Under the pieces are notes generated by a model. That model saw only the letters and a list, made by a program, of their open reading frames with translations, searched no databases and had not been told where the DNA came from. A stretch of DNA of 64,000 nucleotides, from the NCBI GenBank assembly GCA_007121535.1, contig SKKK01000148.1:1-64000 (forward strand), in the 5' to 3' direction. A program made the translations under genes and the position numbers. Below, piece by piece: positions 13,511-56,279 of the stretch; position 1 is the first letter of the stretch; every line of letters begins with the position of its first letter. Source of the DNA: Planctomycetaceae bacterium. GTDB taxonomy: Bacteria > Planctomycetota > Planctomycetia > Pirellulales > Pirellulaceae.

Positions 13511-13624
13511 CCTAGTGCGTTGTCCAGGCGAAAAATGCGGATTGTGAGCGGCACGGCGCTAGCCGCTAGCGCCGTGCCGCTCACTTATCGCGACCCCAAG
13601 ATTTCGCCTGGCCAACGCACTAGG
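13511..13624. mobile_element. Palindromic MITE-like element, family 1 (copy a)
   Basis: A 114-bp near-perfect inverted repeat. The left end is CCTAGTGCGTTGTCCAGGCG and the right end its complement (CGCCTGGCCAACGCACTAGG). The centre is a second palindrome, GAGCGGCACGGCGCTAGC against GCTAGCGCCGTGCCGCTC. The same structure recurs at 40769-40894, and the inner palindrome in divergent form at 30.36-30.44 kb and 56.13-56.28 kb. There is no coding capacity, so it is a non-autonomous element. Its right end is 35 bp before the HEPN gene start. Confidence 0.8.
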
Positions 13625-30354: not shown

Positions 30355-30440
30355 AATGGCGCTAGCCACCGGCTTGAGCGGCACGGCGCTAGCCGCCGGT
30401 TCCCACGAAGACCGGAGGCTAGCGCCTTGCCGCTCACACG
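30355..30440. repeat. Partial family-1 palindromic repeat (copy b)
   Basis: Contains GGCGCTAGCCACCGGC and GAGCGGCACGGCGCTAGCCG followed by GGAGGCTAGCGCCTTGCCGC, i.e. the inner palindrome of the family-1 element without the GCGTTGTCCAGG outer ends. Confidence 0.65.
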
Positions 30441-32126: not shown

Positions 32127-33995
32127 TCATGAGGGCGAAGCGACTGAAGGGCCAGTTTCCGGCAGAGGGCTCCTGACATTTTGCTCCAGGCTGGGGCGGA
32201 CGGTCGAGGCTGAGGGGATTTCTTGATCCAGCTCGCGACGCAACTGGTTCAGCGTCGATCGCAGCGACGTGGTCTCGCGCAGAAACTCGCTCAATCGCTC
32301 ACGAACGGTCCGCACCGGGGTGGTCGCCAGGGGATGTTGCACGCTGTCGACCAGCGTGCGAGGCTCGAGCGCCGCACATGCGCGACGCATGCGCCAGGCC
32401 AGCAGCAGGTAGCCGGGCAACAGGCTGACCAGCAGCAGCGAAATCGCCATGCCGTAGAAGGCCGCCGGTAGGTATTCGGCCTCCAGCCAGGCTTTGCCGA
32501 TCCGGAACAGGGCGTGCGCGGCAAAAGCGGTCGGGATGATGTTGGTCACCACGGCCAGCGGCCACGGCCCGACCTGCTTAGCCGTCTGCTGGCCCAGGTT
32601 GTCCAGGTCGGTCTGCAGATGCTCCAGCTCCTGCCCTTCGCCACCTTCCCACAAAGATTGGTACAACCATTGAGGCCAATCCTGCGACTTGCTTTGCCGA
32701 CCGGCGTCCTCTCCATCGGCCGAACCATCGGTCGGATCGATGCTGGTCGTACCGTGCAGCGCCGTAGGGGCGAAGCCGGTCAATTGTTGGTCCTCTAAGA
32801 ACCTTTGGGCGTCGGCTTGGATGCTGCGGATTTCTTCACGGTATTTCGGCCCCATCGCGGTCAGGATACGTTGCAGCGGCACCATGCCTCGCAACATGGC
32901 ATGCAGGACCGACACTCCGGCTCGCGCCAATCCGATCAGGTTCCAACGGCCCAACCCCAGACGGGCGACATGGAACGAGGCGTTCAGTGCCGAGACGCGC
33001 GCTCGCAACCACACCGCCAGCCCCATCAACCAACCAATCCGCTCGCCCAGATAACGCCAAGCCAACTCGCGAACCACCATCCGAAAAGCGTGTCGAGCCA
33101 AAGGCTGGTCCAGGCTGTCGCGGTAGACCTGCCGGATGCGATCGTTCAACTGGGCTTCGTATGCGATCACCGTCTCCAGCCGCTGGTGCAAGGCTTCGAC
33201 CACCTGGTCGGACAATGCATGCGACGTGTAACCCAAGAACCCGTCGGCCCGAAGTTTCTCCACGCTTTCCACCAGGCGGGTATTGAACAACGACTGACGC
33301 ATCCGTGAAAAGTCGTATCGTCCCTGATCCGTCGCACTGACCACGAAGCGCACCCCGTCATGCGGCTCGAATCCCAGATCCCGCAGACGGCCATCGAAAT
33401 CGGCACGCACCTGGTCGATCACTCGCGGCACCTGATCGGCCTTGTTCAGCACGAAGTACCAGCGTTTCAACGAGGCCCAGGCGAGCAGTTCCTGATGCAC
33501 CTGGAATTCCGAGCGACGGTCCGGCATGGTCACGTACACCACGATATCCGCCCGGCGCACGATCGCTCGGGTGACGTGCCAGTTCTCGCGCAACGCACCG
33601 TCGATATCGGGAGTGTCGATCAGCGCGATGCCGCCCAGATCGACCTCGATGTATTGAGGGTCCAACTCGGCAGGCAGATTCAACAAGGGACGATCTTGAG
33701 CCGACACGGCGACAAACGGCTTCTGGGTGAAACAGCGTACGTCGTCCGAGGTGGGACTGGCCTGGGACCGCCCGATCAAGGCATTGAAAAGGGCGCTCTT
33801 GCCAACCCCCGTCCCGCCCAGCAAGACGACTCGCACCACCGGGACCGTCGGGTCATCGCTCTCCAGACGCCGCAGCGCCTCGCCCAAGCGCAGCGACATC
33901 CGCATCGCCGCGTCCAAGCTGCCGGCGCGTTGAGCCATCCCATCGAGCCGCTCGACTCGCTGGACGAATCCGGGAAGAAATGTGGCCTTGCTCAC
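32127..33995 (-). CDS. Membrane-associated GTPase (dynamin/Era-like), second of a coupled pair
   Basis: 622 residues. G1 GGTGVGKSALFNAL (~60), G3 DTPDIDG, G4 VLNKADQ and G5 VSATDQ are all intact, so it should bind and hydrolyse GTP. A long helical middle (~260-440) follows, then a Ser/Gly/Asp-rich linker and two hydrophobic helices near residues 490-550 (ISLLLVSLLPGYLLLAW), and a coiled-coil tail (LREL-x-TTSLRSTLNQLRREL). The layout recalls bacterial dynamin-like GTPases. The start is taken as the GTG at 33995, which overlaps the stop of the upstream GTPase as GTGA, a tight translational coupling. The frame is open further upstream only inside the other gene. Confidence 0.75.
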   Translation of the reverse strand: MSKATFLPGFVQRVERLDGMAQRAGSLDAAMRMSLRLGEALRRLESDDPTVPVVRVVLLGGTGVGKSALFNALIGRSQASPTSDDVRCFTQKPFVAVSAQDRPLLNLPAELDPQYIEVDLGGIALIDTPDIDGALRENWHVTRAIVRRADIVVYVTMPDRRSEFQVHQELLAWASLKRWYFVLNKADQVPRVIDQVRADFDGRLRDLGFEPHDGVRFVVSATDQGRYDFSRMRQSLFNTRLVESVEKLRADGFLGYTSHALSDQVVEALHQRLETVIAYEAQLNDRIRQVYRDSLDQPLARHAFRMVVRELAWRYLGERIGWLMGLAVWLRARVSALNASFHVARLGLGRWNLIGLARAGVSVLHAMLRGMVPLQRILTAMGPKYREEIRSIQADAQRFLEDQQLTGFAPTALHGTTSIDPTDGSADGEDAGRQSKSQDWPQWLYQSLWEGGEGQELEHLQTDLDNLGQQTAKQVGPWPLAVVTNIIPTAFAAHALFRIGKAWLEAEYLPAAFYGMAISLLLVSLLPGYLLLAWRMRRACAALEPRTLVDSVQHPLATTPVRTVRERLSEFLRETTSLRSTLNQLRRELDQEIPSASTVRPSLEQNVRSPLPETGPSVASPS

Positions 33996-35851
33996 CGGTG
34001 AACCCCCAAATGTTTCGCCAATTCGGTCAACTCGGCACAAGCCGCCGCACAGCTATCGATGGTCGCTTCGTCCAATCGCTCCAGGCAGCAGTGCCACGAT
34101 TCGAATAACGGGCCGACGAAATGCGTCTGCAGGTGATCGGCCAGCTCCTGACGACGCTGATCCCGCCACGTGTCGTAAGCCTGTTCTGCGATCCGCTTCA
34201 ATCGCAAATGGTCGAAACGATCCAGAATCCGGCCGGCCACGACGCTGCCGGCCCCCGCCATTGCCGGCAATCCCAATGTACCGACGATGCCACCCGTGGT
34301 GCCTAGATCGATAACGATTGCGGCGGCCCCGGCTGCCATCATGACATCGCCCGAGATCACCAAAAGATGCGCCAGCCAGCGATTCTCTTGACACCACTGA
34401 GCCAGCGCCAGGCGGACCACCTGTTCCCAGTCCTTGGTTGGGGGAGGCAACGGTTGTTCCAAGAACGCGTCTCGCACGGCACCGCAACGGACGTGGTCCA
34501 AAATCCCGCCGGGGACCGCCTGTTGGGGATACAAGGACCGAAAACGGTCGATCAGCCGCTCGGCGAATTCATGCAGCCGGTCGCGTTCCAGATCGGGACG
34601 TTGTCGCACCTCGTCCGGATCCGGATTCTCTAACAACCAGCCCATCAGCCGGCGCACGGCCGCTTTGCTCTGTCGAGCCATCAGTGCGATCGGATAGCGA
34701 ACCAGGCGTGCCGACCAGTGGAGATTCTTTCGCGACACGTCGATTGCCAATTCGACCAAACGGCCGGCCGGGAATTGGCTGGCAGCCACCGTCCCAGCCG
34801 TCGTCTGCACCTCTTCCGCCACGCGCTGCAGGGCTTGCTGGCAGGCTGTGCGGCGCGAGCGCGCCAGATCCAGCAGATCGCGGCATCCGGCGATCGCCTG
34901 GTCCGTGGACTCCAGCAAACCGGTCAAAACGATCCGCACCGCATCCTGGCCCCGCAAGAGGGAATCCAACGGCGGCGCCGTCGATCGCAAAGGGACAATG
35001 TCCGACAATTGCGGCTCGTCGCTCAGCGGGCTGCTGTAGGCATCGCAACCGGCCAGGAATGCGTGCAACGTCCGGCCGTCATTTCGAGATTGCCGGAACG
35101 ATTCGAAACGCTGGACGGTCTCCAGCAGATCCTTCCATTTGGCCGCTGCGGCCGCAGGGGTGGTTTTCGTAAACAGGTAGACCAGAAACCCCGCTTTGCG
35201 GCAACAGCGGGCCAGTTCGCTGACCACGCGGTCGTCCTTGTAACCATCGCCGAAAACCACGAACACCACCACCTCGGCGCGATCCAGCATCCGATCCGCC
35301 TTGTCCCAATTCGCTTTTTCCACCGTGTTGAAATCCGGGACATCCACCAGGATCAACGGCAGCGATTCAGCAGGATTGCGGTCGGCATAGGTGACGTACA
35401 GCAAGCGATTGGCATCAGTGCCCGGCTGGCACAGTTCGTCCATGTGCTGCAGCGGCTGCAAAACGAATCCCGGGAACAGACGGCCCAGCCGCTGGGGATC
35501 GTTCAAATCCGTCGGGATGGCCATAGCGCAGACGTGCGTCATCGGCCGCAACACGTGCCCGGAGGGTACGTCGACCCCCGTCAATTGGCGAAACCAAGCG
35601 CTTTTGCCAGCACCGCTGGGACCATACAACGTGGCGACCATCATCGGTTCAGCGCCTTGCTGCTGGAACGCCTGGTAGCGCAGTTGCATCGATTGCCATC
35701 CATCCAGGGAGACCTGCTCACCCTGATCGACCAATGCTTGCTCGATGCCCGGAACCTGATCCATCAGCAGTTGGACGCAATCCCGGTAACGCCGAAAGAT
35801 CTCTCGATCCAGTCTTGATGGCAGCGGCTTCGTAGGCAAGTCCTGAATCAT
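33992..35851 (-). CDS. Membrane-associated P-loop GTPase-like protein, first of a coupled pair
   Basis: 619 residues. G1/Walker A YGPSGAGKSAW (76-86), G3 LVDVPDFN, while the G4 position reads LFTKTTP instead of NKxD, so guanine specificity may be weakened or lost. A helical region follows, then a hydrophobic stretch around 510-560 (MMAAGAAAIVIDLG, GTLGLPAMAGAGSVV) that could insert into membrane. Sequence outside the G motifs is unlike its partner. The gene pair is co-translated through a GTGA overlap, so the proteins probably act as a heteromeric unit, as found for paired bacterial dynamins. It is divergent from a small gene with a long leader. Confidence 0.7.
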   Translation of the reverse strand: MIQDLPTKPLPSRLDREIFRRYRDCVQLLMDQVPGIEQALVDQGEQVSLDGWQSMQLRYQAFQQQGAEPMMVATLYGPSGAGKSAWFRQLTGVDVPSGHVLRPMTHVCAMAIPTDLNDPQRLGRLFPGFVLQPLQHMDELCQPGTDANRLLYVTYADRNPAESLPLILVDVPDFNTVEKANWDKADRMLDRAEVVVFVVFGDGYKDDRVVSELARCCRKAGFLVYLFTKTTPAAAAAKWKDLLETVQRFESFRQSRNDGRTLHAFLAGCDAYSSPLSDEPQLSDIVPLRSTAPPLDSLLRGQDAVRIVLTGLLESTDQAIAGCRDLLDLARSRRTACQQALQRVAEEVQTTAGTVAASQFPAGRLVELAIDVSRKNLHWSARLVRYPIALMARQSKAAVRRLMGWLLENPDPDEVRQRPDLERDRLHEFAERLIDRFRSLYPQQAVPGGILDHVRCGAVRDAFLEQPLPPPTKDWEQVVRLALAQWCQENRWLAHLLVISGDVMMAAGAAAIVIDLGTTGGIVGTLGLPAMAGAGSVVAGRILDRFDHLRLKRIAEQAYDTWRDQRRQELADHLQTHFVGPLFESWHCCLERLDEATIDSCAAACAELTELAKHLGVHR

Positions 35852-36036: not shown

Positions 36037-36113
36037 GAGACCCAACCGGTCTCTCACGGCGGCTTGTCCTCTCTCGGGAGCCGCCAGAATCCGGATGAAA
36101 AAGCCGGGATTCG
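36037..36113 (+). promoter_or_regulatory. Run of three hairpins in the leader of the 36.2-kb gene
   Basis: GAGACC/GGTCTC (36037-36053), GGCGGCT/AGCCGCC (36058-36085) and GAATCC/GGATTC (~36087-36113) can fold consecutively within ~80 bases upstream of the small gene at 36200. No U-tract follows, so they do not look like terminators. They could form a structured 5' leader or small RNA. Confidence 0.35.
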
Positions 36114-36199
36114 GTATGCCTAGACCCCGCTCGCGAGCAGACGAGCTGAACGCGAGGCGGCTGAAGATTCAAATTTTACGAACCAAAGGAGTTGAAACC

Positions 36200-36511
36200 A
36201 TGCAACGACGAATCAACGAAATCCCCTTCGAAGCCCTGATTACCACCGAGCACGATCTTGTCAATGGCCTGCTGGGTGAAACGAAGCAGTTGTTGGACAG
36301 CGCGGACGTCGTCTACGCGGTCGACGGACGCGATGACCGTGATATCCTGATCTACGGCAGAGAGAAACTGCGACGGATCGCCGAATCGGACGTTCCTGAG
36401 GGAGCGCGGGTGGTCCGCGTACGAATCCGCTCGGGCCAAAACGAACTGGAAAGCCTGCTGGAACTCGTGCGCCAAAGCAAAGGCTACCACGACTACGCGG
36501 AATCAGCCTGA
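36200..36511 (+). CDS. Small conserved-looking hypothetical protein, 103 aa
   Basis: Not recognised. ATG at 36200 is preceded by AAGGAG nine bases upstream. The protein is soluble, acidic, with an N-terminal IPFEALITTEHDLVNGLLGE segment, a DGRDDRDILIYG centre and a C-terminal RIRSGQNELESLLELVRQ helix. It resembles a small sensor or regulatory protein in composition only. The frame is open upstream to 36095 but without a start supported by a ribosome-binding site. It converges with the glycogen-synthase-like gene 37 bp away. Confidence 0.55.
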   Translation: MQRRINEIPFEALITTEHDLVNGLLGETKQLLDSADVVYAVDGRDDRDILIYGREKLRRIAESDVPEGARVVRVRIRSGQNELESLLELVRQSKGYHDYAESA

Positions 36512-38433: not shown

Positions 38434-38667
38434 TCAGCCGCCACCGATCGCCGAAAACAGATCGATCCGCTCGCCGCCATCCAGAACGTGATCCATACCG
38501 GCGGCCCGATGATCGACGAAGATGATCCGCGTTTGCTCGGGAGGGATCCCCAGACGGTCGATCACCATCCGGATCGTCGCCCCCTTCGGCAAATCCAGTG
38601 GCAACGTCGATCGGCCGTCGGTATAGTCGCGTAGATTGGCGTAAACACTGACGGTCACCGTGGGCAT
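38434..38667 (-). CDS. Ubiquitin-like beta-grasp protein (ThiS/MoaD family) ending in Gly-Gly-Gly
   Basis: 77 residues. The pattern VSVYANLRDYTDGRSTLPLD, then GATIRMVIDRLGIP and IIFVDHR-A, ending DLFSAIGGG, is that of the MoaD/ThiS beta-grasp fold with an exposed C-terminal diglycine for adenylation. No ThiF/MoeB-type E1, MoaE, ThiG or tungsten-enzyme gene is next to it, so a canonical cofactor role is not supported by context. ATG at 38667 lies inside the 3' end of the ATPase gene (13-bp overlap), so it is translationally coupled. It could be a sulfur carrier or a protein modifier for the operon. Confidence 0.8.
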   Translation of the reverse strand: MPTVTVSVYANLRDYTDGRSTLPLDLPKGATIRMVIDRLGIPPEQTRIIFVDHRAAGMDHVLDGGERIDLFSAIGGG

Positions 38668-39305
38668 CGTGTTGCTCCTGATCGATTCTCGCACACATCG
38701 TACAATCGAAACCAAATCTCTCGCAAATTTCCGCGACAAGCGTGGAATGCATCCGAAACAACGTCGTCGCAGATCGCCCGACAATCGTCCGGTGGCAAAA
38801 GTTGGCGGACCAGTTGTCGAGCCAAGGGGATCGTAGTCTCGGTGCTCCACAAATGCGGCAGTCGGCAGTCCCGATGAGCGGTCACCAGCAAGCCCCATTG
38901 TTTGCGACGACAGCATCTTCGCCATCGAAACCGCTCGAGCCAATTCAGTTGTTCGTAGCCATCGATCACGACCACAGTTCGAGCGTTGCCGCCGGCGCTT
39001 TCTGGACGCGGCATGCGTGGCCGCCGATCTCCCGAGTGAAACTCGAACCATGGGACCGATCTGCCCGCCGCGAGCAATGCAGGCTCCAGCGTGCACAGCA
39101 GCGTCGATTTGCCGCTGCCATGAGGCCCGATAATCTGGCCCCACCAGCCTTGGCGACGCAATCGGCCGATCAGCTCAATAACACCCGCTCCCGGCGGAAA
39201 CAGAAAAGGCAACGCGCCGGGACGTACAAAACGAGTGGAAAACGGATTGGAAACGCTTCCCGATCCGTGCCCGCCGGGTTGTGTCGCGAACTCATCCCAC
39301 GCCAT
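38655..39305 (-). CDS. P-loop ATPase of the arrestin/ubiquitin-like operon
   Basis: 216 residues. Walker A IGPHGSGKSTLL (~59-70), Walker B RTVVVIDGYEQL and a sensor-1-like LLVTAHRD are clear. The N-terminal FSTRFVRPGALPFLFPPG and GWWGQI segments look planctomycete-specific. It resembles small AAA/STAND-like NTPases without extra domains. ATG 39305 overlaps the stop of the arrestin-like gene (39292) by 14 bp, and its own 3' end overlaps the ThiS-like gene, so the four genes form one polycistron. Possible role: ATP-driven loading or remodelling of the partners; this is inference. Confidence 0.7.
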   Translation of the reverse strand: MAWDEFATQPGGHGSGSVSNPFSTRFVRPGALPFLFPPGAGVIELIGRLRRQGWWGQIIGPHGSGKSTLLCTLEPALLAAGRSVPWFEFHSGDRRPRMPRPESAGGNARTVVVIDGYEQLNWLERFRWRRCCRRKQWGLLVTAHRDCRLPHLWSTETTIPLARQLVRQLLPPDDCRAICDDVVSDAFHACRGNLREIWFRLYDVCENRSGATRCPR

Positions 39306-39708
39306 ACTCGTCTCGTCGAGGCAGTAATTGGAATAATCGATCCGCACATATGTCTTTTCCCCGCCGTCGCACCAGCCGGATGCGAACACACCAGTGGATT
39401 TTCACGATCGTTCCGTGATACGTCAGCGGACTGGGTGGCATTTGGCACGTCAATCGCTGCAACGGACGCAGGTCGCCATCGACCACGTCGCTGGGGCGGG
39501 ATCTTTCAAAGAAATGAACCCCGAAATCCTCTTCGCCCTTGCCCTCTGTAAACCAAATCACCGAAACCTCGATCGCCCGAATGTCACGAGGTTCGATCGC
39601 GTCGATCTGGTATTCGAACTCCAACACTTCGCCAGGATGGAAAGTACTGCTAGGACGGCAGATTTTGAGCGAGATCAGCGGTTCGGTGATGGTCTTGCTT
39701 GCCGTCAT
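39292..39708 (-). CDS. Soluble arrestin-like beta-sandwich protein, 138 aa
   Basis: All-beta composition with arrestin-fold hallmarks: FHPGEVLEFEYQID (first sandwich strands), IEVSVIWFTEGKG-ED, and the signature C-terminal PLTYHGTIVKIHWCVRIRL (arrestin-type Y-G-xxV-IxW-VRV strand pair). A single domain of ~130 residues is half of a eukaryotic arrestin. The ATG at 39708 lies within the 3' end of the membrane gene (59-bp overlap). It probably binds a partner or the membrane protein; no catalytic motif is seen. Confidence 0.6.
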   Translation of the reverse strand: MTASKTITEPLISLKICRPSSTFHPGEVLEFEYQIDAIEPRDIRAIEVSVIWFTEGKGEEDFGVHFFERSRPSDVVDGDLRPLQRLTCQMPPSPLTYHGTIVKIHWCVRIRLVRRRGKDICADRLFQLLPRRDEYGVG

Positions 39709-40741
39709 AACGGGGGTAAACAATGATGGGGAAACAACGCTCGAACGATGGCCAGGCACCCGCCTCGCCGTGGATCACCAGCTTCCAGTTTATCGCGTTG
39801 TGCTCGGATTGGAACGAGTGCATCGCGTCCGTGGGGATTTCGAGCCGCGTCTCCAGCTCCAACGGCTCGTCAGGCGTGATGCGAAAGTCGGTGCGCCGAT
39901 CGATCTGACGGTTAAAGACGCGCTTCTGTTCGATGCGTATGTCCGTCCCCTGGCGAAAAGTCGCACATTCTTCGCACACCAGATGGACCGCCAATGCCTT
40001 CATCGTCACGCGGCCACTTTGCGAGACGTAAACCCAATACTTGCCACCAGGCTTTAACGGGTGGTCGGAGATCTCGACGTGCGTCGGACCGACCCCCGCG
40101 TAAACAGACCACTGGCGAAGCATGTCCCGAATCGACCATCCACTGATCACCAAAAACGGAATCGCAAAGATGGCCAAGAAATACTCCGGTTGCCCCTTAA
40201 CAAAACTGAGCACCGCCATACCCGATAATAGGGCAGCACTGGCCGTCCAGATGATGCAAAAGACCATGGCCAAGATCAAACGCCAAGCCGGCGATTGAAC
40301 TTCGGGCAACCGGTAACGCTGCTTGACTCCGGGGCTGTTGGTCAGATTGGCGTCGCTGGGAATGCACGGCAGTTGAAGCTGTTGGGGAGCCGTCGTGGTT
40401 TTCGGGCCGATCGCAGCCGCGCGCTTCGCCAACGCCGACCGCCGTTCGGGCGAGGTGCCCGCGTTCAACCATGTCCAGAGCACGCCGCCGCCACCCAGCA
40501 GCATGAAGGAACTCAACACGATCACCATCACCCAGAAGCCGAACCCCGGCGGGAAGGGATGCTCGATCGGCAACGCCCGCAAGACCAGCAGTGCGGTCAG
40601 CGAGACCCCACCCAGCACGAACAGCGTCGCGGAAAACAGAGCCTCGCCCAACGTGCCCACCAGCTTCGAGCCCGTCCGCCGCGTCCCCCGCTTCTTTTCC
40701 CAAACTCTCAGCCAGCGAGCCAACCAATCGTCCCCCCGCAC
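39650..40741 (-). CDS. Four-helix membrane protein with arrestin-like C-terminal domain
   Basis: 363 residues. Transmembrane helices at ~33-56, 69-92, 154-178 and 186-203; a 60-residue basic loop separates the pairs. Residues ~220-343 form a beta-rich domain with a Vps26/arrestin-like pattern: HPLKPGGKYWVYVSQSGRV, LAVHLVCEECATFRQGTD, and AMHSFQSEHNAINWKLVIHG near the end. The start is a GTG at 40741; no ATG precedes it, and a MITE lies 27 bp upstream. First gene of the overlapping four-gene unit. It probably recruits the soluble arrestin-like protein to the membrane. Confidence 0.65.
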   Translation of the reverse strand: MRGDDWLARWLRVWEKKRGTRRTGSKLVGTLGEALFSATLFVLGGVSLTALLVLRALPIEHPFPPGFGFWVMVIVLSSFMLLGGGGVLWTWLNAGTSPERRSALAKRAAAIGPKTTTAPQQLQLPCIPSDANLTNSPGVKQRYRLPEVQSPAWRLILAMVFCIIWTASAALLSGMAVLSFVKGQPEYFLAIFAIPFLVISGWSIRDMLRQWSVYAGVGPTHVEISDHPLKPGGKYWVYVSQSGRVTMKALAVHLVCEECATFRQGTDIRIEQKRVFNRQIDRRTDFRITPDEPLELETRLEIPTDAMHSFQSEHNAINWKLVIHGEAGAWPSFERCFPIIVYPRYDGKQDHHRTADLAQNLPS

Positions 40742-40768: not shown

Positions 40769-40894
40769 GCGTTGTCTAGGCGAAAAATGCGGATTGTGAG
40801 CGGCACGGCGCTAGCCGCCGGTTCTGCACGCCACCGGCGGCTAGCGCCGTGCCGCTCAGTCATCGCGACCCCAAAGATTTCGCCTGGACAACGC
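40769..40894. mobile_element. Palindromic MITE-like element, family 1 (copy c)
   Basis: Ends GCGTTGTCTAGGCGAAA and TTTCGCCTGGACAACGC are inverted repeats around the inner palindrome GAGCGGCACGGCGCTAGCCG / CGGCTAGCGCCGTGCCGCTC. It is flanked on both sides by CCTACG (40763-40768 and 40895-40900), the expected appearance of a 6-bp target-site duplication. It is inserted 27 bp upstream of the GTG of the arrestin-like operon. Confidence 0.8.
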
Positions 40895-56124: not shown

Positions 56125-56279
56125 CAGTGAGCGGCACGGCGCTAGCCGCCGGTCTTTTCCCGTCGCCTGGGGACCGGTGGCTAGCGCCATTCCGCTCAGT
56201 TGGTCCCCGGGACGTCCGAAGGCCGGTGGCTAGCGCCATTCCGCTCACTATAGCCGGTGGCTAGCGCCATTCCGCTGAG
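56125..56279. repeat. Family-1 palindromic repeat array (copy d)
   Basis: One inverted pair (GAGCGGCACGGCGCTAGCCG / GGTGGCTAGCGCCATTCCGC) followed by two further direct copies of GCCGGTGGCTAGCGCCATTC. The last copy ends at the stop codon of the alkaline phosphatase gene. Confidence 0.7.

Follow-up and report, generated by a model that had tools for sequence, protein, structure and literature searches.

A conserved planctomycete operon of two arrestin-like proteins and a P-loop ATPase, probably joined late by a ubiquitin-like passenger gene

Our results suggest that a locus in a planctomycete genome is a conserved three-gene operon followed by a passenger gene for a ubiquitin-like protein (UBL), and that the trio may encode a membrane-anchored arrestin, split over two proteins and switched by an ATPase; we put the probability of this reading at roughly 55%. 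The locus lies in a window of 64,000 nucleotides, the whole stretch of DNA that was analysed, and consists of four overlapping minus-strand open reading frames found where the original prediction had placed them (Table 1). Each gene does start inside the preceding one, as had been claimed, when overlaps are counted from the starts of Arr2, the ATPase and the UBL that are backed by relatives. The four genes are flanked upstream by an LpxA-type acyltransferase gene on the same strand and downstream by a gene for a glycogen-synthase-like protein. Adaptors with the arrestin fold are familiar chiefly from the sorting of receptors in eukaryotes. A membrane-anchored two-gene arrestin with its own ATPase would provide a concrete bacterial system for arrestin roles outside eukaryotic trafficking.

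Table 1. Genes of the locus, in order of transcription, with positions in the window
Gene	Coordinates	Strand	Product	Start	Overlap with next gene
memArr	39650..40741	-	363-aa membrane protein with C-terminal arrestin-like domain	GTG 40741 or TTG ~40723	59 nt (Arr2 ATG 39708 vs memArr stop 39650)
Arr2	39292..39708	-	138-aa soluble single-lobe arrestin-like protein	ATG 39708; ORF open to GTG 39759	14 nt (ATPase ATG 39305 vs Arr2 stop 39292)
ATPase	38655..39305	-	~216-aa P-loop NTPase	ATG 39305; ORF open to GTG 39389	13 nt (UBL ATG 38667 vs ATPase stop 38655)
UBL	38434..38667	-	77-aa ThiS/MoaD-type beta-grasp protein with C-terminal GGG	ATG 38667	

The AlphaFold model of Arr2, built with 35 sequences, has a mean pLDDT of 94, and its leading Foldseek matches in the PDB are ARRDC3, beta-arrestin, Vps26C and Spo0M. 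Four long helices are predicted in memArr (residues 25-56, 67-94, 151-181 and 187-217), and its model, built with 18 sequences, ends in a beta domain (220-340, pLDDT about 90) for which the N-lobe of ARRDC3 is the best match (1.6e-8); Spo0M (5.7e-8), TXNIP, ARRD-6, beta-arrestin and Vps26 are also matched. Arr2 and the memArr C-terminal domain are both arrestin beta-sandwich lobes by this measure, with arrestin-clan structures on top. The soluble protein is thus arrestin-like, as originally predicted; for the membrane protein, which had been described as arrestin/Vps26-like, the arrestin fold holds, while Vps26 is one of several matches and not the best.

At the level of sequence, a profile of Arr2 compared with the PDB matched ARRD-6, Vps26B (3e-4) and TXNIP with E values of 1e-4 to 1e-3; the memArr profile matched nothing relevant there. 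In Pfam, Arr2 gave a weak Arrestin_C match (E 0.0021, 18.8 bits vs a cut-off of 27.7) and memArr matched neither Arrestin_N nor Arrestin_C, so that neither protein passes a curated cut-off; the Spo0M family was not matched by the window proteins. Direct profile comparison of the memArr and Arr2 lobes gave no significant similarity, and the case for homology is therefore built on the fold and on fused relatives. The loop W-x-T-E-G-K-G-[DE]-E-D is among the most conserved stretches of Arr2. In memArr, basic residues outnumber acidic ones by 8 to 3 in residues 1-24, and likewise in 95-150, and residues 57-66 contain no basic residue; by the positive-inside rule, these charge counts place the C-terminal domain, as a prediction from sequence, in the cytoplasm. 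Longer relatives of memArr (L067, L075 and L082) carry DUF3592 above the Pfam cut-off.

Conservation of the trio was examined in draft genomes, all from the window's phylum. A memArr homologue is present in 20 of 20 members of the order, the window's own genome included, and in each of them the memArr and Arr2 genes are adjacent on the same strand. In 17 of the 20 the ATPase gene comes immediately after Arr2 (by profile or tblastn); in an eighteenth, G041 (L047), the next gene clusters by BLAST with the divergent ATPase of L086. Of 294 genomes sampled from the phylum, 34 gave a memArr match and 31 an Arr2 match. The loci fetched from this sample comprised 22 separate adjacent pairs, one memArr-Arr2 fusion (L079) and nine Arr2-memArr fusions, L084 and L098 being from one genome. 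Among the loci with split genes and L079, 19 have an ATPase gene as the following gene on that strand; in two others (L086 and L089) it is directly upstream of the fused gene. The gene order that had been proposed for planctomycetes was therefore recovered for memArr, Arr2 and the ATPase, but the position of the UBL was not kept outside the genus. The original prediction had staked itself on an arrestin fold and on a gene order shared with relatives; as the predicted structures contain the fold and the order of the trio extends through the phylum, it failed on neither.

Natural fusions bring the two lobes together. At L079 (3228-5405), the memArr-Arr2 fusion follows the operon order and is succeeded by the ATPase gene. 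In the nine Arr2-memArr fusions the soluble-type lobe comes first and the membrane-type hairpin and lobe follow; in the window, by contrast, memArr and Arr2 are separate proteins. The Pfam cut-off for Arrestin_N is passed by the fused proteins of L083, L084, L086, L087, L089 and L090, and that for Arrestin_C also by those of L083, L084, L087 and L089; L084 and L087 pass the Spo0M cut-off as well, more weakly than that for Arrestin_N. A profile of the nine fused sequences matches the N-lobe of TXNIP in the PDB at 8e-11 and Spo0M at 6e-4. Its W-x-T-H-G-R-G segment aligns with L-W-M-Q-G of TXNIP and corresponds to W-x-T-E-G-K-G-D-E-D of Arr2. Because the fused relatives exceed the Arrestin cut-offs and share this corresponding segment, we read memArr and Arr2 as separated arrestin lobes. 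Two distant genomes (L088 and L090) each have two arrestin-like genes in tandem.

The small ATPase has the P-loop that had been ascribed to it: its Walker A sequence is GPHGSGKST and its Walker B aspartate is invariant, in the motif string NPF...GPHGSGKST...VVVIDGYEQL...TAH...RGNLRE.W.RLYD. Across its family, the Walker A motif GxxGxGK[ST] is present (G60, G63, G65 and K66 are invariant), N-P-F close to the start is invariant, T-x-H is conserved, and a segment G-[ND]-x-R-E...L-Y-D is found as well. Profile matches to RarA and RFC2 at about 1e-6, which cover most of the domain (profile positions 48/59-202), suggest a relative of the AAA+ ATPases; stronger matches span mainly the P-loop. The residue after the invariant D115 is G in 25 of 29 sequences (the window's included), R in one and E in three, and the acidic D-E pair of AAA+ proteins is absent from the window ATPase. 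Hence, we class the protein only as a P-loop ATPase related to AAA+, and with D-G in place of D-E in 25 of 29 sequences its hydrolysis of ATP is uncertain.

We propose that memArr and Arr2 each supply one arrestin-like lobe and that the two together probably form an arrestin scaffold anchored to the inner membrane at its cytoplasmic face. This proposed pairing is based on gene fusion and gene order. The ATPase probably binds the two-lobed scaffold, and ATP binding or hydrolysis would switch the scaffold's hold on a membrane-protein partner, or release it, a grip modelled by analogy on eukaryotic arrestins and on Vps26 gripping receptors. Among the neighbour genes of the loci, none for a cargo, a kinase or a coat partner is found repeatedly beside the trio. 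In one distant phylum relative (L086, 3-5199), genes for a Ser/Thr kinase, the ATPase and a fused two-lobe arrestin lie almost without gaps on one strand; the kinase gene directly before the other two, seen at this one locus, is a lead only.

It is improbable, in our estimation, that the trio serves prokaryotes as a machine for sorting membrane proteins, in which a membrane-anchored split arrestin, driven by a dedicated ATPase, would capture specific inner-membrane proteins and would be related to, or convergent with, eukaryotic arrestin/retromer sorting. It is also possible, although somewhat unlikely, that the three genes form an envelope-maintenance or stress-response unit, with the arrestin-like domains only as assembly modules that recognize no cargo and the ATPase as regulator, comparable to Spo0M. 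The presence of Spo0M among the best fold matches of memArr and Arr2 would fit such a unit, and neither DUF3592 in the longer relatives nor the surroundings of the trio, where trafficking partners are missing, lends support to sorting; however, the fused relatives are nearer to the alpha-arrestin TXNIP than to Spo0M (8e-11 vs 6e-4).

Comparison with known systems places the proposed split arrestin apart from each of them. The alpha-arrestins ARRDC3 and TXNIP share the lobe fold (the ARRDC3 N-lobe is the best PDB match of memArr and of Arr2, and the fused relatives match that of TXNIP and pass Arrestin_N, some of them Arrestin_C), but here each lobe has a protein of its own, one of the two being in the membrane, and an ATPase is added. 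Spo0M, which acts in the control of sporulation in Bacillus, is a single soluble arrestin-fold protein with no membrane anchor and no linked ATPase (cf. entry 5cl2). Its bacterial arrestin-like fold ranks high for both window proteins, whereas one of these is membrane-anchored, an ATPase is linked to them, and neither has a Pfam match to Spo0M. Vps26 of retromer and retriever is likewise of arrestin fold, and the Arr2 profile matches Vps26B, but no Vps35- or Vps29-like partner was found among the scanned locus neighbours and there was no sign of coat formation. The paper on arrestin origins includes only the Spo0M family as bacterial arrestins (PMC2515105). Our searches of the literature on arrestins in bacteria, planctomycetes and prokaryotes found no such module described, and the single paper that names DUF3592, judged by its title, is unrelated to it.

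The UBL is probably a lineage-specific addition to the locus, a latecomer or passenger outside the trio. It is, as had been noted from its sequence, a ThiS/MoaD-type protein with a GGG end: it passes the Pfam cut-offs for ThiS (PF02597, 26 bits vs a cut-off of 22.5) and Ub-Mut7C with similar scores, and this ThiS-family beta-grasp protein carries its C-terminal Gly-Gly within an IGGG terminus found in 5 of 5 aligned homologues. Among 60 genomes, the window's own included, a close UBL occurs only in the four genus members (G000-G003) and in G026, the nearest relative from another genus. In 4 of 4 genus members the gene lies behind the trio, overlapping it or nearly so; no order member examined from outside the genus has it there. 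A search of genome contigs with the UBL returned only two loci, in the same genus, both from Planctomycetaceae MAGs.

Most likely, on the comparative evidence, the UBL carries sulfur for the pterin cofactor of an aldehyde:ferredoxin oxidoreductase (AOR) whose gene lies at another place in the genome. In G026 the UBL gene is directly 3' of an AOR gene, and a second, weaker UBL homologue in the same genome also adjoins one; the closest relatives outside the genus, in G026 and G203, are both beside AORs. Of 15 further, distant matches from the sampled phylum genomes, 5 adjoin an AOR and 10 do not. In the window's genome the UBL gene is not adjacent to an AOR gene, and the AOR of the same clade lies on another contig with no UBL beside it. 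The matching AOR clade (76-100% identity) was found only in G000, G002, G003 and G026, the copies in the last three being 76-93% identical to the window genome's own; thus 4 of the 5 genomes that have a close UBL also have this AOR clade, against 0 of 55 others examined, a co-occurrence that is suggestive but not conclusive as it is limited to two related lineages. In the remaining genome, G001, no AOR was detected, possibly because its assembly is fragmented. In 2006 Iyer et al. described MoaD genes as strict neighbours of AOR genes and proposed a role in the tungsten cofactor (PMC1779556). The UBL resembles these AOR-linked MoaD proteins in being a small beta-grasp protein with a Gly-Gly end, beside an AOR in relatives, but in the window's genus its gene comes last in the arrestin operon, away from the AOR.

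That the UBL carries sulfur for a different pathway (thiamine, tRNA thiolation or general molybdopterin) is quite unlikely, although the similar ThiS and Ub-Mut7C scores, the 10 distant relatives away from AORs and the UBL of G001 would agree with it; the AOR neighbours in G026 and G203, and an AOR clade that accompanies the UBL in four of the five genomes, argue against it. We regard as very unlikely the idea with which the analysis began, that the four genes are a prokaryotic arrestin and ubiquitin-like tagging or membrane-remodelling module. The position of the UBL behind the trio in all four genus members, overlapping or nearly so, and its GGG end speak for it, as do the ThiF/E1-family genes in the genome. 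However, none of the order members examined from outside the genus has a UBL with its trio, the closest UBL from a different genus adjoins an AOR, and no E1, E2 or JAB gene is present at the locus, so the UBL could not be upheld as a partner of the arrestin genes. The absence of an E1-like enzyme had been pointed out originally; the genome contains two further ThiS-family genes as well as eight ThiF/MoeB-family matches, seven of them above the cut-off, and as such genes are needed by a sulfur carrier too, the lack of an E1 in the window decides nothing. Protein tagging by the UBL is unlikely given the known AOR-linked MoaD proteins. Removing the UBL from the account of the split arrestin averts a tempting, and probably false, claim of a bacterial arrestin-ubiquitin system.

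Other leads on the locus were followed and set aside. No PADLOC match was obtained for the four proteins or two relatives, so a defence system was rejected, and plasmid carriage was rejected with no match to Arr2 in a plasmid collection. The neighbouring genes (LpxA, glycogen-synthase-like, BamB-like propeller, UvrD and DNA polymerase beta/PHP) were discarded as functional clues; they are kept with the trio in close relatives only, which suggests ordinary synteny. Elsewhere in the window, two adjacent minus-strand GTPase-like genes occupy 32127-35851, of which the first exceeds the cut-off for MMR_HSR1 and has weak matches of dynamin/IIGP type and the second has weak P-loop matches only; between them and the glycogen-synthase-like gene is a plus-strand ORF of 138 aa (36095-36511) with no Pfam match. 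A REP-like palindromic repeat, CCGGCGGCTAGCGCCGTGCCGCT, is found at 40799-40856 and also at 13547-13581, 30377-30434 and 56130-56276. Its 10 copies in the window compare with 0 expected in shuffles, and against none for a reversed control the genome holds 660 copies at <=2 mismatches.
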